In this document: piece by piece, positions 53,117 to 64,000 of the stretch
How positions within the stretch are numbered: position 1 is the first letter of the stretch
How the letters are laid out: each line of letters starts with the position of its first letter
DNA from: Bacteroidetes bacterium GWF2_38_335
Lineage (GTDB): Bacteria > Bacteroidota > Bacteroidia > Bacteroidales > GWF2-38-335
Assembly (NCBI GenBank): GCA_001769535.1
Contig: MEOH01000022.1
Span: forward strand, 62,001-126,000
DNA: 64,000 nucleotides
Direction of reading: 5' to 3'
Notes under the pieces: generated by a model
What the model was told of the DNA's origin: nothing
Databases searched by the model: none
The model's input: the letters and a program-made list of their open reading frames with translations, nothing else
Translations under genes and position numbers: made by a program

Positions 53117-56100
53117 TTACTTTTTAATGGTTACAACTCCGGTTAATGGCTCTTTGCCGTTTTTCAGGTCAATGATGTAAACGAACGAGCTTATGGGCAG
53201 TTCTTTGCCGTTGTATGTTCCGTCCCATTGGTTGCGTGAGTAGGAATAATCCATTCCCGAACCGGAATATTCAAACATAAGCTGTCCCCACCTGTTGTAG
53301 ATTTCAATCCGTACTTCGTCATAAACACCGATATTCTCTACTTCCCAGGTGTCGTTTACAAGGTCGCCATTGGGCGAGAAGAAATCAGGGATGTTCAGAC
53401 AATCGTCAGATTCTGGTACTATATTGTAAGTAAATGATTTAACGCATCCGTTGTCATCGGTAACAGTCAGGTCGTATGTGCCTGCTGCAAGATTTTCAAG
53501 AACTGCAATGCTGTCTCCGTTTGACCAGTCAAAACTCAACGGAGCCAGTCCGCCTGTTGCTGTGATCGAAATGCTGCCGTCCATGTCACCCGGACAGGTT
53601 GTGTTTTGCAAATCCGAAACTGCTAATAGGTCTTCAAGTTCATTAACGGTAACCGAATCAAGTCCGATGCAACCATTAATATCTGTAACGGTTACCGAAT
53701 AATTTCCAGCTTCTGATACTGTAAGCAACTGGTCGGTTCCTCCGTTTGACCATGCATATGCGATATAGGTTCCTGCATCCAGTGATGTTTCGCTTTCGAA
53801 ACACATGTTGAGGTTTCCGGCAATGGCAGGTCTTGGGTTTTGTTTCACGCTTACTTTTAATGTGTCGGTTCCCCAGCAACCGTTTGCATCAGTAACAGTT
53901 ACAATGAAACTGCCGCCTGTAATGATGTCAATGGTTTGGGTTGTTGCTCCGTTTGACCAGTCATACACTGTGTAACCGGCCCCTGCATCCAGTGTGGCGC
54001 CGCCGCTTTCGCAGAAATATTCTGGACCGATGATGGTTGGAACAGGATTGGCAAACTCGCTGATGGTAACAGTTAAAGTTCCTTCGCATCCTTCGGCATT
54101 GGCAACAGTAACTGAGTAGTCGCCCGGAACAGAGACAGTGATTGTTGATTCTGTTGAGCTGTCTGACCATAAATATGAAGCAAAACCAGCTCCGGGGTTC
54201 AGTGTAAGAGAGCTACCGACACAGAATCCGTGAGGTTCGGGAATTGCGGGTATTGGGTTTGCATTTACTATTACAGTTACCATATCAGTTCCCTCACAGC
54301 CATTGGCATCGGTAACGGTAACGGCAAAGTCTCCGGCAGTTCCTGTTGAAACTGTTTGATCTGTAAGTCCTCCGGTCCAGTTGTATTCGCTGTATCCGCT
54401 TCCGGCATCAAGAACAGTAGTTTCTCCTTCGCAAATTTCAAGTGTTCCGATGATATCGGGGACGGGATTGGTGTTTTCGGTAACGGTAACAGCGTCTGTG
54501 GCAGTACATCCGCCGGGACCTGTGATGGTCACCTGGTATGTGCCGCCTGTTGTGACATTAAGAGTTTGACTTGTTGATCCGCCGGTCCATAAATAACCGG
54601 TAAATCCGGTTCCTGCATCCAGAGTGGTGCTGGCGCCCGAACAAATTGAAAGCACACCGGTAATATCGGCAACCGGGTTGGTGTACACGGTGATATTGAC
54701 TGTGGCATTTCCCAGGCATCCGTTGGCATCGGTCACGGTTACTGAATAATCGCCACCGGTTGTGACGTTAAGCGTTTGTGCAGATGTTCCGCCTGTCCAT
54801 AAGTAATCGGTATATCCGGTTCCGGCATCCAGATCGGTATTTTCACCTTCACAGAATTCCAGATCTCCTGAAATTACCGGAGTGGGATTAGCATTTTCGG
54901 TAACAGTAGCACTTGTTGTTCCTGTGCAACCTGATGCATCAGTGACGGTAACAGTAAAAGTTCCGCCTGCATTGACTGTAATAGTCTGGTTTGTGGAAGT
55001 TTCAGACCAGTCATAGTCATTATATCCCGAGCCGGCGTCAAGTGTGGTGTTTCCACCGGCACAGAATTCCAGATCACCGGTAATTACCGGGGTCAGACTA
55101 GCACTTTCGGTTACGCTGACTGTTTCAGTGTCACTGCAGCCGTTTGAATCGGTTATAGTAACGGTAAAGGAGCCGGATGCGTTTATTGTGGTTGTTTGCG
55201 ATGACGTACTGTTTGACCAGGCATAAGTTGAATACCCTGCCCCTGCATCAAGGGTGGTGTTTCCTCCGGAACAGAAAGAAAGTGCTCCTGTGATGGCAGC
55301 AACGGGATTTGCAAATTCGGTAACGGTTTCAGAATCAGTTCCCGAGCAGCCGTTCGAATCGGTCACGGTAACAGTGTAAGTTCCGCCGTTTGTAATATTG
55401 GTTGTTTGAGATGCAGTACTGTTAGACCATGCATAAGTTGAATATCCTGCGCCTGCATTGATTGTTGTGGAAGATCCGTCGCAGAAAGACAAAGTTCCGG
55501 TGATAACAGGTGTCGGATTAGAATTTACGGTTACGATATGTGAATCGGTACCGGTGCATCCGAAAGCATCTGTAACAGTTACAACATAGGTGCCTGCGCT
55601 GTTTACAGTGGCGCTTTGGTTTGATGTGCTGTTTGACCACGCATAGGTCGAATAACCCGCTCCGGCATTAAGAGTAACACTGTTTCCTCCGCAGAATGAA
55701 GTTGCTCCGGTAATTGCGGGGGTTGGAGGAGTGTGGATGGTAACAGTAAAACTTTCTTCATCGGTACAGGTACCGTCGGCATCATAAATGTAAACAGTCT
55801 GTGATGATGTGAGTGTCAGAGAGGTAATTTCTGTTCCGCCAGAGGCCTGACTGTTATTGAAATATCTTGGGTCATTCAGGTTTGTTCCGCCTATAGTTGA
55901 TTGAGCCGGCAAAGTATAACTTCCACAGGCGGATGCTGAGCCCGGATTGGTAATAACAGGACTTGTACAACTTGGGTCAACAGAAATAAAACTGCCCTGC
56001 TCAAGAAAAACGCCTGAGTCGTAAGCACCGTCGCTAATGTCGGCAACTAGTAATTTAATGTGGTAAGTTGCTCCTGAGGTAACATTTGCCGAAGCAGTAA

Positions 56101-56890
56101 GGACATTGGTATTGCCGTCGAATTTAACGCCGGCAATCTCGCCCCTGAATTCGGGAGAGAATGTTCCGTTTATCCAATCAGGATTGGCAGCCAAACAATT
56201 GGATGCGTTGGGAGCACCGCCTGCTGAGCCAACCACACCGCTGTTTACCGAGTTGATACATACATTTGAACCGTTTGCCAAAAGGGCAATGTTTTCGGCC
56301 GAATTTGAAAAAATCCCGCTGATCCCCGGTCCGCTAAGCAAAAAACCAAACTGGTCGTTGTAATCGGAACACTGGTAGTTTGTTTCACCAATGCCATTGT
56401 AGTAAAGCTCGTCGTATTCTTCAGAACCAAATACATAATTGAATCGGATAGAATCACTTGTTGGAACAAAATCAAATTCAAGAATGGCAACATTATAAGA
56501 GCTTGTTCCACCGGAAAGGATTTCAGCATCTGCCTCATTCCTGACTTCACCGGTTGTTCCGCTTGTGTAGCCCCTGCTGGCCTGACCGCTGTTTGCGGCG
56601 CCCGGAATTTCAAAGACATTTCCTGATGTCATGAAAACACCTGATGAAATTCCCATTTGTGTTGTGGTAGTTCCGGCTGTAGTAAAATACGAAAGCTGAT
56701 ACCTGCCGCTGTAATTCATTACTCCGTAAAACTGTACGTTTGAAACACTAACGCCTCCGCCCATTAAAATATCCTGCACGAGTTGTGTCGGAGTGTAAGT
56801 GGTGGCGTCGACTGTCAATTGGGCATTGATGTTTGAAAAACTCATCAAAACAATAAATGCCAAAATGATTTTTGTTTTAAAAATTCTCAT
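53117..56890 (-). CDS. T9SS type B cargo: choice-of-anchor L, ten Ig-like repeats, CHU_C domain
   Basis: A 1257-residue secreted protein, likely an adhesin. A signal peptide (MRIFKTKIILAFIVLMSFSNIN) precedes a choice-of-anchor L domain (about 25-310; NVAILEFDFVPTSDSIRFNY, VFGSEEYDELYYNG, NDQFGFLLSGPGI). A short spacer leads to ten tandem Ig-like units of 70 residues (about 390-1085) and one SprB-like repeat (TATGGLAPLSFDWSNGDSIA). The C-terminal gliding-motility-associated (CHU_C, type B) domain contains IPDFFSPNGDLVNDTWEVEN and IEIYNRWGQLMFE. The ATG at 56890 is preferred to a TTG two codons before. It is co-transcribed with PorP/SprF 5 bp downstream. Type B domains depend on such a partner for surface display. 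Confidence 0.93.
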   Translation of the reverse strand: MRIFKTKIILAFIVLMSFSNINAQLTVDATTYTPTQLVQDILMGGGVSVSNVQFYGVMNYSGRYQLSYFTTAGTTTTQMGISSGVFMTSGNVFEIPGAANSGQASRGYTSGTTGEVRNEADAEILSGGTSSYNVAILEFDFVPTSDSIRFNYVFGSEEYDELYYNGIGETNYQCSDYNDQFGFLLSGPGISGIFSNSAENIALLANGSNVCINSVNSGVVGSAGGAPNASNCLAANPDWINGTFSPEFRGEIAGVKFDGNTNVLTASANVTSGATYHIKLLVADISDGAYDSGVFLEQGSFISVDPSCTSPVITNPGSASACGSYTLPAQSTIGGTNLNDPRYFNNSQASGGTEITSLTLTSSQTVYIYDADGTCTDEESFTVTIHTPPTPAITGATSFCGGNSVTLNAGAGYSTYAWSNSTSNQSATVNSAGTYVVTVTDAFGCTGTDSHIVTVNSNPTPVITGTLSFCDGSSTTINAGAGYSTYAWSNSTASQTTNITNGGTYTVTVTDSNGCSGTDSETVTEFANPVAAITGALSFCSGGNTTLDAGAGYSTYAWSNSTSSQTTTINASGSFTVTITDSNGCSDTETVSVTESASLTPVITGDLEFCAGGNTTLDAGSGYNDYDWSETSTNQTITVNAGGTFTVTVTDASGCTGTTSATVTENANPTPVISGDLEFCEGENTDLDAGTGYTDYLWTGGTSAQTLNVTTGGDYSVTVTDANGCLGNATVNITVYTNPVADITGVLSICSGASTTLDAGTGFTGYLWTGGSTSQTLNVTTGGTYQVTITGPGGCTATDAVTVTENTNPVPDIIGTLEICEGETTVLDAGSGYSEYNWTGGLTDQTVSTGTAGDFAVTVTDANGCEGTDMVTVIVNANPIPAIPEPHGFCVGSSLTLNPGAGFASYLWSDSSTESTITVSVPGDYSVTVANAEGCEGTLTVTISEFANPVPTIIGPEYFCESGGATLDAGAGYTVYDWSNGATTQTIDIITGGSFIVTVTDANGCWGTDTLKVSVKQNPRPAIAGNLNMCFESETSLDAGTYIAYAWSNGGTDQLLTVSEAGNYSVTVTDINGCIGLDSVTVNELEDLLAVSDLQNTTCPGDMDGSISITATGGLAPLSFDWSNGDSIAVLENLAAGTYDLTVTDDNGCVKSFTYNIVPESDDCLNIPDFFSPNGDLVNDTWEVENIGVYDEVRIEIYNRWGQLMFEYSGSGMDYSYSRNQWDGTYNGKELPISSFVYIIDLKNGKEPLTGVVTIKK
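53630..55727 (-). repeat. Tandem array of ten 210-bp Ig-like coding repeats
   Basis: Ten units of almost exactly 70 codons in the type B cargo, consensus ITG.L.FC.G..TTLDAG.GY..Y.WS...S.QT..V..GGTYTVTVTD.NGC.GTD. Units 1-3 are the most alike (all contain AGAGYSTYAWSNST), and units 5-6 share TGGYLWTGG-like and QTLNVTTGG blocks, pointing to recent local duplications. Confidence 0.85.
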
Positions 56891-57113
56891 AAGCAATAGA
56901 TTTTTTTGTGTAAATGCAACGCTAATTTATAACAAGTTCAAAGGCATTTCAACTTTATGTGGCCAGCTGTAAAAATTTGGGTTGTAAATACCTATTTGGG
57001 GTATATGGAATTTGTTTGGGGTAAACAGAATAAATTGATACATAAATAAATAGATCTAAAAATGTTCAAATTACTGAATTTGTCAAATTATGGTATTAAT
57101 GACTATTTGTTAG

Positions 57114-57141: not shown

Positions 57142-58908
57142 ATGAGATTATTATTTCCAATAATATTCATTTTTATTTTTCTTGCTGTAAGTGGAGCAGA
57201 TGACTATTCTGACAGTCTGCTCAATCAACTTTCAAAAGCAGAAACTGATAAGCAAAAAACAACAATATATCTGGAACTTGGAAAATACTGGTCAAGGAAA
57301 TCTCCGGATGTAGCTTACGATTATGTAAGTAAATCACTCGATTTGTCAAAGAAGAATAGTGACAGGGAGAATGAAATCAACAGCTACATATTACTTGGGA
57401 TTATTCATAAAAATATGGGTAATTTCAAAGAAGCGGTAAAGCATCAGATGAACGGATTAAAAATTGCAGTTGAGATAAAGGACAAGCAAAAGGAATCGGC
57501 TTGCTTAAATAATCTTGGAAGTATATATCAGGCACAGAATAGTTATGATAAAGCACTTGAGTATTTCAAAGAATCTCTGGTAATTGAAGAGGAATTTGGT
57601 AATAAAAATCAGGTTTCTGTAAGGTTATATAATATAGGCACTATTTATGAACTGAAGGACAGTTTGGATATGGCTTATACTTACTATTATAATTCTCTTT
57701 TAATTGAACAGGAGATTGGCAACAAGGAGGGAATTTATTTTGCTTATTATGGTCTGGCCGGAGTTGACACCAAAAGAAAAGATTTTGCCCGGGCTACGGA
57801 ATATCTTGAAAAAGCATTGGTAATTGCACAACAGCTTAACGATCTTGGGGGTTTGGCTCTTTGCCATAATGAACTTGCAAAGCTGTACAAAGCCATGGGT
57901 GAAACCGACAAGGCCATACAGTCCTTTATTATCAGCATAGATTTTGCCAGAAAGATTAATTTTAGAAATGAGATAAAAGACGGATATTTAGGACTTTCTC
58001 AACTTTACAGATTAAAAAACGATTATAAAACAGCCTTTGAATATCAGCAACAATATATTTCTATAAATGATTCGCTAAACAGTGTGGAAATAAGTTCAAA
58101 GATTGCAGAAATTGAATCAAGATATCGGCTGGATATAAAGGAAAAGGAAATTAAATTTCTTGAAGAAAAGGAAAGTTTACTCGAAGAAAGGGCCGATTCC
58201 GAAAAGGCAAACAGGTATTATCTTTTGTTTGCGTTTTTTCTGGCAATTTTTTTAGCACTCACAAATCTCGACAGGGTTCTAAATAATTTACAGGCAATAT
58301 TTATTTATTCAGGATTAATTGTTTTTACACTGCTTGTAATCACATTGATATTTTTCAGGGTTAATTTTTCAGGTAATGATATAAATCTTGAAAATTTCAT
58401 TATTGTTTTAGTGGATGTTCTTACCTACGCAATCCTCCCGATTTTTATTTTTGTAATACTGGCCGAGAGAATTTTGCTCACCCGGCATTTGAGAACAGCC
58501 GGCATGCTTTCTGAAAAAATCCGCGAAATAGACACATCTCCCAATGAACCTGAAATTGTTTTAATAGCCGAAAATGATAAAGATCAGGTAAAATGCAATT
58601 CTGATGACTTGTTATTTATTGAAGCCAATGACAATTATTCGGCGGTTTGCTACCTTGTAAACGGACAAATGAAAAAAGTTCTTCTCAGGGGTTCGTTAAA
58701 ACGTATGGAAGACCAGCTTGCCGGTCGCGACATGATCATAAGATGCCATAAATCCTATATCGTAAATATCCGAAACATCCGTAAAGTGGCAGGAAATGCT
58801 CAGGGATATAAATTGCAGTTCAGTCAAACAGACATTGAAATACCCGTTTCACGTAACTTTCCCAAATCTATAATGGAAAAAATCAGGAATCAGATGGTTG
58901 GGCATTAA
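57142..58908 (+). CDS. Membrane-anchored TPR sensor with LytTR DNA-binding domain
   Basis: A 588-residue regulator. A signal-like N-terminus (MRLLFPIIFIFIFLAVSGA) precedes about six or seven TPR units (about 45-300; NNLGSIYQAQNSYDKALEYF, ATEYLEKALVIAQQLNDLGG). A coiled coil (about 315-352) leads to three or so membrane segments (about 355-450; YYLLFAFFLAIFLAL, AIFIYSGLIVFTLLVITLIF, AILPIFIFVILAE). The C-terminal LytTR domain (about 485-585) has DLLFIEANDNYSAVCYLVNG, VLLRGSLKRMEDQLAG and MIIRCHKSYIVNIRNIRKVA. It is the LytTR equivalent of the TPR-AraC protein at 14693. It lies divergent from the type B cargo and may regulate it, but that is inference. Confidence 0.9.
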   Translation: MRLLFPIIFIFIFLAVSGADDYSDSLLNQLSKAETDKQKTTIYLELGKYWSRKSPDVAYDYVSKSLDLSKKNSDRENEINSYILLGIIHKNMGNFKEAVKHQMNGLKIAVEIKDKQKESACLNNLGSIYQAQNSYDKALEYFKESLVIEEEFGNKNQVSVRLYNIGTIYELKDSLDMAYTYYYNSLLIEQEIGNKEGIYFAYYGLAGVDTKRKDFARATEYLEKALVIAQQLNDLGGLALCHNELAKLYKAMGETDKAIQSFIISIDFARKINFRNEIKDGYLGLSQLYRLKNDYKTAFEYQQQYISINDSLNSVEISSKIAEIESRYRLDIKEKEIKFLEEKESLLEERADSEKANRYYLLFAFFLAIFLALTNLDRVLNNLQAIFIYSGLIVFTLLVITLIFFRVNFSGNDINLENFIIVLVDVLTYAILPIFIFVILAERILLTRHLRTAGMLSEKIREIDTSPNEPEIVLIAENDKDQVKCNSDDLLFIEANDNYSAVCYLVNGQMKKVLLRGSLKRMEDQLAGRDMIIRCHKSYIVNIRNIRKVAGNAQGYKLQFSQTDIEIPVSRNFPKSIMEKIRNQMVGH

Positions 58909-60209: not shown

Positions 60210-62447
60210 ATGAAAAAACTGTTTTATACAATTATACTGACCTTAACTATTGCTTTAAATGCAAATTCCCAAAGCTTTTATGATACTGCATCTGTAAATA
60301 CACTTGAAATAAGCTTTCAAAATACCAATTGGGATGTCATACTTGATATTTTTTACAATAACGGCGCCGAAGAAAGACTGATGGGCAATGTTGTTATAAA
60401 TGGTGTTACTTATGATAGTGTAGGTGTAAGATTTTGGGGTTCATCAACATATGACCCGACATTTCTTAAAAACCCGATTAATATTGAACTGGATTTTCTG
60501 AAAAATCAAGATGTGGATGGTTTTACTACCATGAAATTATATAATGGAAAAAATGATCCTTCCTTTTTGAGGGAAGTGCTGGGCGGAATTATTGCTTCGA
60601 AGTACATGAATATTCCTGCTTCCAATTTTTCCAAGGTGTATGTAAATGGCACCTATTATGGGTTTTTTACAAGCGTGGAACATATTAACTGGCAGTATGG
60701 CGAGCGGTATATCAACTGCGGTCCAAACGGGATCAGGGTGCAATGCAATCCGGTTATCGGAACTGCAGGATCTACACTTGATTACCTTGGAACCGATTCG
60801 GCATTATATTATAATATGTATGAAATGAAATCTGACAGCGGTTGGGCCCAGTTTATTGCTTTTGTTGACACATTAAACAACAATCCTTCAAAAATCGAAA
60901 CAGTTTTTGATATGGATCGTGCTATCTGGATGTCGGCCTTCAGCAATGTGACTTCACATTTGGATACTTATCTGGGCACCATTCAACAGAATTACTACCT
61001 TTTCAGGGATAAGAATGAAAGGTTCGTGGCTCTTCAGCGTGATTTCAGTGAATGCTTTGGAGGATTTGACCAGATTGACACCACCTCATCAAATACCCTG
61101 GATGCATTAAAGTATATGAGTCCGGTTTTAAGAGAAAGCTTCCCCGGATGGCCATTGCTTCAACTGATTTATTCAAATCCAACATACAAAAGAATGTATA
61201 TTGCCCATTGTAAAACAATTTTGGAAGAGAACTTTACCGACAATTCATATTATCAAACCGGAACGGATATTCAAACATTCATATCAAATGAAATTCTTAA
61301 TGATCCGAATAATTTTTATTCTTATGATGATTTTCTTGTGAATCTGGATACCACTCAGGAATCTTCAGGCATAAAAACCATAGGAATAAAGGAATTGATG
61401 TCGGCGCGCACAGCTTACCTCATGGGACATGAGCTTTTTACCTGTTCGGCTCCTGAAATTGGTAATATTTCTCATTTTCCTGAAGTGTTGCAGCCAGGTT
61501 CAACATTCTATATCACAGCAGAAATTTCAAATGCAGACTCAATTTATATTGCAACGCGCACAGGCATCAGGGAAATTTTTTCCAAACAGCCCATGTATGA
61601 TGACGGTATGCATAATGATGGATCAGCAGGAGATGGAGTTTATGGATATTCAGGCACCATGGGAATAAACGACCTGCAGTTTTATATATATGCAGAAAAC
61701 GATTCGGCCGGATATTTTTCTCCAAGGCGTGCTGAAAAAGAATATCATTATCTTGGCTCATCAACCGATGTGGTAATAAATGAAATAATGGCGTCCAATA
61801 AGAATACCGTAACCGATGCAAACGGTGAATATGATGACTGGATTGAGCTTTATAACAATTCCTCATCGGCCGTTTCGCTGTCGGGATGGTATCTGTCTGA
61901 TGACCCTGATATCACCAATAAATGGTTGTTCCCCAATGTCAGCATTGGTTCGGGTGAATATCTTATTGTATGGGCCGACAAAGACACCATGCAATATGGA
62001 ATTCATACCAATTTTAAATTGTCTGCTTCAGGTGAAAAAATTCTGCTTGTAAATTCATCAGGGGATGTTTTGTATGAAACAGCTTATCCATATACCAACC
62101 CCGGACTGTCTTATTCAAGGATTCCCAACGGTACAGGAGGCTTTACGGTGAAAGATCCCACTTACAATAAAAAAAATGATGTGATAATTGGAATTGCTGA
62201 AAGATACTTTCTTAATGTAAAAGTATATCCCAATCCGGTTAACGATTTTTTCATCGTGGAATCGGGCGACAATGACAATTTTAATCTGACAGTTTATGAT
62301 ATATCAGGAAAGGTAATTCTGGAAGAAAAAATTGCCGGAAACAATACGCGTATTAATAGTTCTTCATGGAAAAAAGGAATGTATCTCGTAAAAGTAACCC
62401 TGCAGGGAAAATATTCAGGATTGTATAAAATTATTAAACCAGAATAA
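60210..62447 (+). CDS. CotH kinase-family protein with lamin-tail domain and T9SS sorting domain
   Basis: A 745-residue secreted protein. Signal peptide MKKLFYTIILTLTIALNANSQ. The CotH domain (about 40-400) includes GVRFWGSSTYDPTFLKNPIN, LDFLKNQDVDGFTTMKLYNG, YVNGTYYGFFTSVEHINWQY and RFVALQRDFSECFGGFDQID. CotH of Bacillus spores is an atypical protein kinase; the FxxxxDFSExFGG region carries the Asp-rich active-site segment. A lamin-tail domain (about 525-640; VVINEIMASNKNTVTDANGE, WIELYNNSSSAVSLSGWYLS) and a type A sorting domain (KVYPNPVNDFFIVES ... KGMYLVKVTLQGKY) follow. It leads an operon with a lipoprotein, a VTC-domain protein and a DUF4956 protein. Confidence 0.9.
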   Translation: MKKLFYTIILTLTIALNANSQSFYDTASVNTLEISFQNTNWDVILDIFYNNGAEERLMGNVVINGVTYDSVGVRFWGSSTYDPTFLKNPINIELDFLKNQDVDGFTTMKLYNGKNDPSFLREVLGGIIASKYMNIPASNFSKVYVNGTYYGFFTSVEHINWQYGERYINCGPNGIRVQCNPVIGTAGSTLDYLGTDSALYYNMYEMKSDSGWAQFIAFVDTLNNNPSKIETVFDMDRAIWMSAFSNVTSHLDTYLGTIQQNYYLFRDKNERFVALQRDFSECFGGFDQIDTTSSNTLDALKYMSPVLRESFPGWPLLQLIYSNPTYKRMYIAHCKTILEENFTDNSYYQTGTDIQTFISNEILNDPNNFYSYDDFLVNLDTTQESSGIKTIGIKELMSARTAYLMGHELFTCSAPEIGNISHFPEVLQPGSTFYITAEISNADSIYIATRTGIREIFSKQPMYDDGMHNDGSAGDGVYGYSGTMGINDLQFYIYAENDSAGYFSPRRAEKEYHYLGSSTDVVINEIMASNKNTVTDANGEYDDWIELYNNSSSAVSLSGWYLSDDPDITNKWLFPNVSIGSGEYLIVWADKDTMQYGIHTNFKLSASGEKILLVNSSGDVLYETAYPYTNPGLSYSRIPNGTGGFTVKDPTYNKKNDVIIGIAERYFLNVKVYPNPVNDFFIVESGDNDNFNLTVYDISGKVILEEKIAGNNTRINSSSWKKGMYLVKVTLQGKYSGLYKIIKPE

Positions 62448-62448
62448 T

Positions 62449-62856
62449 ATGAAAGTGAGCGCAATAAAAATATTGATTTTTTCGGCGATAATTATATTAT
62501 TTCAGGCATGCAAAAAGGATGCCGGGCCGGGAGGTACCTCCAAAATCACCGGAAAAGTATATGTAAAGGAATATAATTACAACTTTACCGAAGTGATTGG
62601 TGAACACTGGGCTCAGGATGAAGATGTTTTTATTGTATATGATGACAATACTGTGTATAATGACAAGTTTGCTACCAGCTATGATGGTACATTTGAGTTT
62701 AAATATCTGAATAAAGGCAAGTACACCATTTTTGTTTACTCTAAAGATACAACCAGTTTGTACCCTACAGGAGACGTAATTGTGTCGCGCGAAGTTGAAA
62801 TTACCGAAAACGGTCAAACCATTAACCTTGATGATATTGTTATAGCCAACAACTGA
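62449..62856 (+). CDS. Small lipoprotein in the CotH-VTC operon
   Basis: A 135-residue protein. A lipoprotein signal (ILIFSAIIILFQACKKDAG, Cys near residue 22) is followed by a beta-sandwich-like domain with TSKITGKVYVKEYNYNFTEV, VFIVYDDNTVYNDKFATSYD and GTFEFKYLNKGKYTIFVYSK, resembling carboxypeptidase-regulatory or SdrB-type folds. It starts 1 bp after the CotH gene and its stop overlaps the VTC start by 1 bp, so translation is coupled. Function is unknown; it may bind the CotH or polyphosphate system in the envelope. Confidence 0.8.
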   Translation: MKVSAIKILIFSAIIILFQACKKDAGPGGTSKITGKVYVKEYNYNFTEVIGEHWAQDEDVFIVYDDNTVYNDKFATSYDGTFEFKYLNKGKYTIFVYSKDTTSLYPTGDVIVSREVEITENGQTINLDDIVIANN

Positions 62857-63605
62857 TGAACAGTGATTTATTAAATATTGTCAATCGTTTTGAATCAATC
62901 TCCCTTAAGCAGGCCGATAAGGTAAAACTTTTTAACCGTACAGATACCAAATTTCTGTTTAATATTTCACAACTTCCGGAACTGTTGGAAAAGGTGATCG
63001 ACAAATACAACATCCTTGAAATAGAGAATACCAGAATACTTGAATACCGCACGCTTTATTATGACACACCTGAAAAACTTATGTATCTGGCACACCATAA
63101 CGGACGGCTTAACCGATACAAGATCAGGCAACGTGAGTATCTTATTTCGGGCACATCATTTCTGGAAATTAAATTCAAATCCAACAAAAACCGGACAATA
63201 AAAAAAAGAGTAAAACTCCCGGCATTTAATCCGGTTCTTGATCAGGCTACTGCTAATTTCATAGCTGATAACTCTTGTTTTTCATGCGGAGCGCTGGTTC
63301 CTGCAATTTCAAACAGGTTTTCAAGGATAAGTTTTGCCCATAAATCAAAAAGTGAAAGGCTCACCATTGATTTTGAGTTGAGTTTTGAAGATAACAACGG
63401 CAATCAGGTGAAGCTTGATAATATTGTAGTTGCTGAGGTTAAACAGGAGGGTTATTCTTTGAAGGCAGACATGATTCAGGCACTCAGATCAATGCATATC
63501 AGGGAATCGGGCATGAGCAAATACTGTATTGGAACTGCTTTGCTCGATAGTAGTGTTAAGCGCAACACATTTAAGGAAAAATTAATGTTAATCAATAAAA
63601 TATAA
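62856..63605 (+). CDS. VTC-domain (polyphosphate polymerase-like) protein
   Basis: A 249-residue cytoplasmic protein of the triphosphate-tunnel family. Basic residues expected in the tunnel are visible: RTDTKFLFNISQLPELLEK, EYRTLYYDTPEKLMYLAHHN, GRLNRYKIRQREYLISGTSF, LEIKFKSNKNRTIKKRVKL, NRFSRISFAHKSKSERLTID, and VVAEVKQEGYSLKADMIQAL, SKYCIGTALL. In yeast Vtc4 this fold makes polyphosphate from ATP; bacterial VTC-domain proteins are widespread but little characterised. It sits between a lipoprotein and a DUF4956 membrane protein, a common pairing of VTC and DUF4956 genes. It lacks a membrane anchor, so the DUF4956 protein may supply it. Confidence 0.9.
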   Translation: MNSDLLNIVNRFESISLKQADKVKLFNRTDTKFLFNISQLPELLEKVIDKYNILEIENTRILEYRTLYYDTPEKLMYLAHHNGRLNRYKIRQREYLISGTSFLEIKFKSNKNRTIKKRVKLPAFNPVLDQATANFIADNSCFSCGALVPAISNRFSRISFAHKSKSERLTIDFELSFEDNNGNQVKLDNIVVAEVKQEGYSLKADMIQALRSMHIRESGMSKYCIGTALLDSSVKRNTFKEKLMLINKI

Positions 63606-63607
63606 GT

Positions 63608-64000
63608 ATGAAAACATCAATTCAGGTAGAACAAAAAGAAAAAATATTTGGACTGGAACTATTTAATTCTGAGGATTTTTACCAGTTGATTGTAAGGTTT
63701 GGTTTTAATTTGCTTATTGCAATTATTATTGTCAGGGTGCTGTATTACTCAACACATAAAAGAAAGGATTACCTCTTTACATTTATGCTGATCAGTACAA
63801 CAGTTTTTCTTTTGTGCTTTTTGCTTGATAATGTTAAGCTTGAACTGGGATTTGCTTTGGGATTGTTTGCCATTTTCGGAATCATCAGATATAGAACAAA
63901 TGCAATACCAATTAAGGAGATGACATACTTATTTCTTGTAATTGGATTATCTGTAATAAATGCCCTTGCCAATAAGAAAGTAAGCTATGCCGAATTGCTT
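63608..64000 (+). CDS. DUF4956-family membrane protein, partial at window edge
   Basis: The plus strand reads MKTSIQVEQKEKIFGLELFN and continues for 131 codons to the edge. Three membrane segments are visible: LIVRFGFNLLIAIIIVRVLY, YLFTFMLISTTVFLLCFLL and the stretch around LELGFALGLFAIFGIIRYRT. The FGIIRYRTNAIPIKEMTYLF signature is that of DUF4956 proteins. It starts 2 bp after the VTC stop and is the fourth gene of the CotH operon. DUF4956 function is unknown; co-occurrence with VTC suggests a membrane partner for polyphosphate synthesis or transport. Confidence 0.88.
   Translation, partial: MKTSIQVEQKEKIFGLELFNSEDFYQLIVRFGFNLLIAIIIVRVLYYSTHKRKDYLFTFMLISTTVFLLCFLLDNVKLELGFALGLFAIFGIIRYRTNAIPIKEMTYLFLVIGLSVINALANKKVSYAELL

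Follow-up and report, generated by a model that had tools for sequence, protein, structure and literature searches.

Near the end of a 64,000-nucleotide stretch of contig MEOH01000022.1 from Bacteroidetes bacterium GWF2_38_335 (the whole stretch is called the window below), a gene for a VTC-domain protein, a predicted polyphosphate polymerase, is directly followed by a gene of the DUF4956 family. This VTC–DUF4956 pair is the core of the locus, and the genes found with it, encoding a CotH-family kinase-like protein, a small probable lipoprotein and a DUF2490 protein, are optional. Our favoured reading is that the locus is a module for the synthesis and export of a phosphate polymer; we hold it tentatively and put its chances somewhat below even.

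The operon and its constant core

The four genes in the window lie on the forward strand with intergenic gaps of 1, -1 and 2 bp, just as a first-pass annotation of this DNA had stated. This was seen in the open reading frames and in a Pfam domain search of the window proteins, in which the curated bit cut-offs were 23 for VTC (PF09359) and 23.8 for CotH (PF08757). On the genome contig (C22, locus L007) a DUF2490 gene begins at the base directly after the DUF4956 stop (gap 0), outside the window, and thus the operon consists of five genes. Their order is CotH–lipoprotein–VTC–DUF4956–DUF2490, and a divergent comF-like gene bounds the upstream side:

60210..62447, + strand: CotH-family kinase-like protein, 745 aa (PF08757, PF00932, PF18962, TIGR04183)
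62449..62856, + strand: small probable lipoprotein, 135 aa (simple signal pattern; counterparts at the same place in relatives)
62856..63605, + strand: 249-aa VTC-domain protein, predicted to be a polyphosphate polymerase of the cytosol (PF09359, predicted fold, residues)
63608..64000, + strand: 5' portion of the DUF4956 gene, which runs on past the window end (PF16316); the full gene encodes 228 aa (L007:5608-6294)
64295-64960 in window numbering, beyond the window (L007:6295-6960): DUF2490 protein, 221 aa, its start resembling a signal sequence (PF10677, E 3.8e-22)

The distribution of the families was followed in 148 genomes of the phylum, drawn by tool, and in 14 control genomes. VTC was present in 29 of the 148, DUF4956 in 45 and CotH in 60, and all 29 VTC genomes, which belong to 16 families, carry both DUF4956 and CotH. 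Since kinship inflates Fisher tests, the labels were permuted within families (20000 permutations). The observed overlap was reached in none of the permutations for VTC–DUF4956 (Fisher P 1e-19), in 15 for VTC–CotH (P 2e-14) and in one for DUF4956–CotH (P 5e-19), where 42 of the 45 DUF4956 genomes have CotH. In one family (f22) the identical 14 of 18 genomes hold DUF4956 and CotH. The co-occurrence of the three families, which the first-pass annotation had proposed to check, therefore goes beyond chance. Among the controls, VTC and DUF4956 match the same three genomes: Bacteroides ihuae, Corynebacterium glutamicum and Methanosarcina acetivorans.

The same association is visible at the level of loci. 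Surroundings were fetched for 41 of 48 listed DUF4956 places, including 29 of the 33 VTC places. DUF4956 is adjacent to VTC on the same strand in 27 of these 29 and at most about 3 kb away, also on the same strand, in the remaining two. With the own locus excluded, a CotH gene is part of 9 among 40 DUF4956 loci, against 0.61 expected under an even spread of CotH across the genome (Poisson P 2e-8). The best 80 of 560 confirmed DUF4956 loci, called the named loci here, all share the subtype of the query. They hold VTC in 72 cases (adjacent in all 72), DUF2490 in 53, the lipoprotein in 31 and CotH in 18, as counted with neighbour profiles built from the same loci. Many of them sit on short contigs, so that absence near contig ends is uncertain; in four of the eight named loci that lack VTC (L135, L145, L174 and L176), DUF4956 stands at the contig end. 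Among the 45 named loci of at least 14 kb the numbers are 42 for VTC, 27 for DUF2490 and 15 each for CotH and the lipoprotein. In the closest genomes, eight VTC loci, some on short contigs, show the pair in all eight, DUF2490 in three and CotH in two, and in a genome of the same genus the pair stands without CotH or other partners in the 9 kb seen. The pair is thus constant whereas CotH, lipoprotein and DUF2490 vary, which makes VTC–DUF4956 the core and the rest interchangeable. Natural fusions between any two of the profiles, which would have spoken for contact, did not turn up among the open frames of either the 41 or the 80 loci.

That CotH is optional near the pair, as in the named loci and in the same-genus genome, is what one would expect if VTC–DUF4956 were an ordinary phosphate-storage pair and CotH a mere neighbour, the two being frequent in the same lineages. 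The within-family permutations for DUF4956–CotH and VTC–CotH argue against such a coincidence, as do the excess of CotH-bearing loci and the fact that Deinococcus, Pseudobutyrivibrio and Planococcus have all three genes together. This explanation is already disfavoured and we consider it very improbable.

Three genomes of the sample have DUF4956 but no match to CotH. In two of them a gene convergent to DUF4956 encodes a PF01326 (pyruvate-phosphate-dikinase ATP-binding) domain protein whose start is signal-like (L104:8772-10667, E 3.0e-32; L105:8617-10494, E 5.8e-24). In the third (L103) an exported protein without known family follows DUF4956; it resembled CotH by eye but was rejected as a CotH relative, with nothing found by Pfam and an hhalign value of 0.4% against three CotH proteins. 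Related exported proteins without a Pfam family stand directly after DUF4956 at L143:7654-10486 and L103:8419-9444, and in L143 the next protein has ankyrin repeats and a calcineurin-like phosphoesterase domain.

Predicted properties of the encoded proteins

The VTC domain was recognised with E 1.4e-24 (87.4 bits), and its basic tunnel residues are intact, as had been claimed for this gene. R28, K32, R87, K89, R91, R93, E104 and K106 are all present, as are K116, R118, R157, R168, D172, E194, K196 and K222, and these 16 residues are invariant or nearly so across 26 aligned sequences (R91, R93 and E194 in 26/26). A structure model built from this alignment (pLDDT 93.2) resembles yeast Vtc4, both in Foldseek (3g3r, E 6.9e-13) and in VIA-align (Z 17.4, root-mean-square deviation (rmsd) 3.2, 212 aligned). 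In the profile alignment to Vtc4, R91, R93 and E194 fall on its R264, R266 and E426 (counted from R196, numbering of the PDB entry), and altering these three inactivates the yeast VTC complex according to the available text of PMC9911596. The protein has no hydrophobic segment and no SPX match in Pfam, so it is devoid of the fused membrane parts of eukaryotic VTC. Its fold and residues, like those of Vtc4, make it a predicted polyphosphate polymerase.

Triphosphate tunnel metalloenzyme (TTM) hydrolases share this fold, and E. coli ygiF comes close to Vtc4 in the structural comparison (Z 15.9 vs 17.4). The VTC protein might then be a tripolyphosphatase or another TTM enzyme, with DUF4956 moving a different phosphorylated compound. 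However, 13 Vtc chains precede the first other TTM protein in the Foldseek ranking, and in a profile search of PDB sequences every match with E no higher than 1 (10/10) was a Vtc protein, which leaves this explanation extremely improbable. Bacterial polyphosphate is usually credited to PPK1 and PPK2. Neither has a match in the own genome, whose assembly is 96.7% complete, and VTC is therefore the only polymerase found there among the families searched.

The CotH protein combines a CotH domain (PF08757, residues 91-384, E 3.1e-31, 109.5 bits), a lamin-tail domain (PF00932, residues 518-621, E 4.3e-19) and a type A sorting tail of the type IX secretion system (T9SS; residues 672-743, PF18962 E 1.8e-13, TIGR04183 54.7 bits with a cut-off of 23 bits), an architecture that the first-pass annotation had described correctly. 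It had also regarded the attachment of the tail to CotH as notable; the feature is not unique, since the CotH protein of locus L099 has such a tail as well. The open-licence literature yielded nothing on CotH proteins with a T9SS tail. The conserved residues are K87, E157, D252, N261 and D278. D252 is kept in 37 and D278 in all 39 rows of an alignment that includes the window protein twice, and both align with Asp in three other CotH proteins. Changing the two catalytic residues D228 and D251 inactivates CotH of B. subtilis (PMC7821199, available part). Judged by pattern and spacing, D252 and D278 should be their equivalents. The catalytic residues thus appear retained and the protein is a predicted kinase; their loss in CotH or VTC, which was looked for in the alignments, was not found.

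The own genome encodes five CotH proteins in total. Lamin-tail domains recur around this system: inside the CotH proteins of the window and of L086:8706-11159, as a separate protein in the operon of L092 (L092:9378-10847), and in a Pseudoalteromonas lipoprotein encoded before DUF4956 (L195:5273-5767).

No Pfam family matched the 135-aa protein between CotH and VTC above the cut-off of that family. The start of the protein (LFQAC) is compatible with a lipoprotein signal, as judged from a simple pattern match, and after the signal a motif of roughly C-x4-GxGGxSxIxGxV recurs in relatives at the equivalent place.

For DUF4956, the part inside the window matches PF16316 with E 7.4e-33 and the full-length protein covers the entire profile (1-169 of 169, E 2.2e-52). 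The model, built from 33 sequences (pLDDT 84.6, pTM 0.69), combines a hydrophobic helical domain with a C-terminal alpha/beta domain. An R94-x-R96 motif is invariant in 33/33 sequences; following the positive-inside rule, we would place it where a helix ends on the cytosolic side. By profile comparison DUF4956 appears to be a remote relative of MgtC, the nearest one found: hhalign against four MgtC proteins gave 97.1% with E 5e-11 over 185 columns. The MgtC profile PF02308 has no match in the full-length protein at E <= 0.01, and the own genome has no match to it either. No strong structural match in the PDB was accepted, as the VIA-align scores (Z <= 5.7; rmsd 5.9, 91 aligned) do not rise above what the tool describes as common; the weak Foldseek matches include chains with ACT domains.

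Envelope partners and a possible export route

In relatives, genes for envelope proteins recur around DUF4956. An adaptor-like protein is encoded beside the pair or beside a lone DUF4956 in 24 of the 41 loci, 22 of these 24 being outside the own class, and matches HlyD_3 in 15 and HlyD_D23 in 13 of the 24. Locus L092 shows the order CotH–DUF4956–adaptor–OEP–VTC–lamin-tail protein. The last gene was taken for a second CotH by an early profile, a candidate that was dropped as Pfam gives lamin-tail domains only. L106, from the own class, is arranged as CotH–DUF4956–adaptor–OEP-like, and in family f22 (L107-L114) the order DUF4956–adaptor–OEP-like is found in 8/8 loci. The outer-membrane proteins of L107-L114 were not accepted as proven TolC, with only 2 of 10 proteins of the profile group matching OEP (one of them that of L092); as this support is weak, they are labelled OEP-like.

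Genes connected with phosphate form a second group of neighbours. An extra SdiA-regulated/phytase-like protein is present in L076 and L083, and DUF4956–VTC–phytase-like sets are found on plasmids of Shinella and Aminobacter and, with a phosphate transporter in between, of Nitratireductor. On the Deinococcus QL22 plasmid VTC–DUF4956 lies near acid phosphatase and phosphonate transporter genes, with no CotH in the stretch. A Pseudoalteromonas plasmid carries a gene for the phosphate-selective porin Porin_O_P (E 2.4e-47) 1 bp after DUF4956; there (L195:5655-7651) only a 104-aa C-terminal VTC-like frame precedes DUF4956, and a lamin-tail lipoprotein lies upstream. The complete trio is encoded on plasmids of Deinococcus taeanensis (L196, CotH–VTC–DUF4956), of Pseudobutyrivibrio (same order, surrounded by genes for glycosyl- and pyruvyl-transferases) and of Planococcus (VTC–DUF4956–CotH–hypothetical–HEAT–glycosyltransferase). 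Puteibacter caeruleilacunae (L150), a cultured environmental bacterium, has CotH, VTC, DUF4956 and also DUF2490. Phosphate and exit through the envelope are the recurring themes around DUF4956.

The arrangement of the genes, their conservation, the predicted fold and the co-occurrence are demonstrated; export and the use of the polymer as a donor are what we infer, in four steps. Soluble VTC, as its predicted fold and residues suggest, would join gamma-phosphates of ATP into polyphosphate in the cytosol. The nascent anionic chain might then enter an oligomeric DUF4956 through the cytosolic Arg-x-Arg, by analogy with yeast, in which the VTC tunnel feeds a membrane channel lined with Lys and Arg (PMC9911596, available part). 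An envelope partner may carry the chain outward, to judge from the neighbours: DUF2490 here, and in relatives an HlyD-type adaptor with OEP or a phosphate-selective porin. Outside, the polymer could be a matrix polyanion, a phosphate reserve or a phosphoryl source, and the T9SS-exported CotH may phosphorylate a surface protein or glycan, perhaps supplied by the polymer.

A stronger form of the proposal would make VTC–DUF4956 a dedicated prokaryotic polyphosphate synthase-translocase whose product leaves two-membrane bacteria by way of an adaptor, OEP, a porin or DUF2490 and feeds kinases outside the cell, CotH and perhaps exported proteins resembling pyruvate-phosphate-dikinase. We regard it as improbable. 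If true, it would answer how outside kinases act without extracellular ATP. More generally, a VTC enzyme with a membrane partner of its own would offer such kinases a phosphate source where ATP is scarce, give DUF4956, a family of unknown function, a role and explain the secreted CotH alongside.

Several observations weigh against synthesis and export of a polymer as the function of the module. DUF4956 has no confident Foldseek match in the PDB (best E 0.25), and because a clear match is missing the pore is a hypothesis only, patterned on the yeast VTC channel. To our knowledge, MgtC is not a polymer transporter. The own operon contains no adaptor or outer-membrane efflux gene, only DUF2490, which we presume to be an outer-membrane barrel, and the OEP assignment in L107-L114 is weak (hhalign of the eight proteins against the OEP protein of L092, 65.8%). 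PPK1, present in 134 of the 148 genomes, is also held by 26 of the 29 VTC genomes, so that VTC is no simple substitute and a separate role rather than replacement is suggested; replacement of PPK1 by VTC was rejected, PPK1 being missing in 3/29 VTC genomes vs 11/119 others (P 1.0). DUF4956 occurs without VTC in 16 of its 45 genomes. Finally, the available passages of PMC12345266 report no aggregation defect for a VTC deletion in S. intermedius, which counts against a strict polyphosphate model; deletions of CotH and of DUF4956 both lowered aggregation in artificial sputum medium and shifted Pel amounts in opposite directions. These phenotypes, together with the DUF4956 genomes that lack VTC, fit a tie of DUF4956 to CotH that is tighter than that to VTC.

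Part of this evidence would suit DUF4956 as an MgtC-like membrane regulator, the cytosolic alpha/beta domain of which would be an ACT-like sensor that couples modification of the envelope to the state of phosphate or ATP; VTC would be a local polyphosphate or tripolyphosphate enzyme feeding the sensor and CotH would use envelope ATP. The remote similarity to MgtC, the strands and helices of the C-terminal part of the model, the ACT chains among the weak matches and the Streptococcus aggregation phenotypes (seen for DUF4956 and CotH and not for VTC) are consistent with it, and DUF4956 is described with four transmembrane (TM) segments and an ACT domain in the available text of PMC12345266. Such a regulator would leave the adaptor, OEP, Porin_O_P, DUF2490 and phytase-like neighbours unexplained, and also the presence of VTC beside 72 of the 80 named DUF4956 genes. 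We see it as an unlikely explanation, if one to be taken seriously.

The earlier interpretation, namely that the operon may couple cytoplasmic polyphosphate synthesis, membrane transfer and a surface kinase, is thus supported in part. The association is real and the HlyD, OEP, Porin_O_P and phytase-like neighbours hint at export, but CotH is not an obligate member (18/80 named loci).

A scan for promoters and terminators gave no signal (promoter-like sites, 22 found with 25.6 expected; terminator-like sites, 3 found with 3.9 expected). The operon neighbours are ComF-like, TPR-LytTR and DUF2490 proteins. The TPR protein with a LytTR DNA-binding domain is encoded at window positions 57142-58908, and its likeness to the FimS sensor is limited to residues 8-346. 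Positions 53117-56896 encode a protein of 1259 aa that, by eye, contains numerous repeats of almost the same sequence (VTVTDxNGC...) and has a C-terminus that looks like the gliding-motility type.

Comparison with known systems

In Gram-positive Pel clusters, cotH, polyphosphate polymerase and DUF4956 genes (with or without DUF4832) are accessory genes, and CotH was suggested to regulate Pel synthesis through protein phosphorylation (PMC7112168, available part). CotH could then be a kinase of glycans or proteins whose role is to decorate a polymer that the cell secretes, with VTC–DUF4956 as an accessory for phosphate supply or as the source of a matrix counter-ion. In addition to the Pel clusters, the glycosyl- and pyruvyl-transferase genes around the Pseudobutyrivibrio trio point in this direction, as does the Planococcus set with HEAT and glycosyltransferase, which resembles NELoc-2 of C. 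perfringens (PMC2879425, available part). On the other hand, no polysaccharide gene lies within the own or the Deinococcus taeanensis operon. PelG was above cut-off in only 2 of the 148 genomes, neither of which has VTC, and at E <= 0.001 but below cut-off in four more, of which two (G055 and G135) have VTC. We consider this explanation rather unlikely.

According to the available text of PMC12345266, a search by its authors for the arrangement beyond Pel was unsuccessful. In the open-licence literature, the only full occurrences of the three-gene set that we came across adjoin Pel clusters of Gram-positive bacteria, with parts of the set described from Clostridium perfringens; we found no proposal there of export or of a link to HlyD, OEP or porin for the set, and nothing on bacterial polyphosphate export that bears on it. 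Since the own genome has no PelG match and PelG is rare in the 148 genomes, the set exists without Pel and with new partners. Thus, it is not specific to this polysaccharide.

With the Pel accessory set the operon shares three contiguous families, a secreted CotH and a DUF4956 with four TM segments and ACT (per the available part of PMC12345266). It differs in having no PelG match in the genome, no DUF4832 in the operon and no contiguous pel genes, and it has in addition a T9SS tail and lamin-tail domain on CotH, a lipoprotein and DUF2490; relatives add HlyD, OEP and porin partners. We know of no T9SS in NELoc-2 of C. perfringens. This locus shares VTC, CotH, HEAT and glycosyltransferase, and its small membrane protein annotated 'tubulin/FtsZ' may be a DUF4956 protein, whereas it is Gram-positive and has VTC and its neighbour duplicated (PMC2879425, available part). 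The MgtC family (PF02308) resembles the membrane and C-terminal parts of DUF4956 at the level of remote profile similarity; the missing PF02308 match, the invariant RxR and the pairing with VTC set DUF4956 apart. The yeast VTC complex (Vtc1/Vtc3/Vtc4) has in common with the pair the TTM tunnel fold, the catalytic residues and a membrane partner with conserved Arg (PMC9911596, available part), whereas the VTC protein here has neither an SPX match nor a fused membrane segment. A VTC protein with its own membrane partner would represent a separate route that brings the polymer to the outside, comparable to the one leading into the yeast vacuole.

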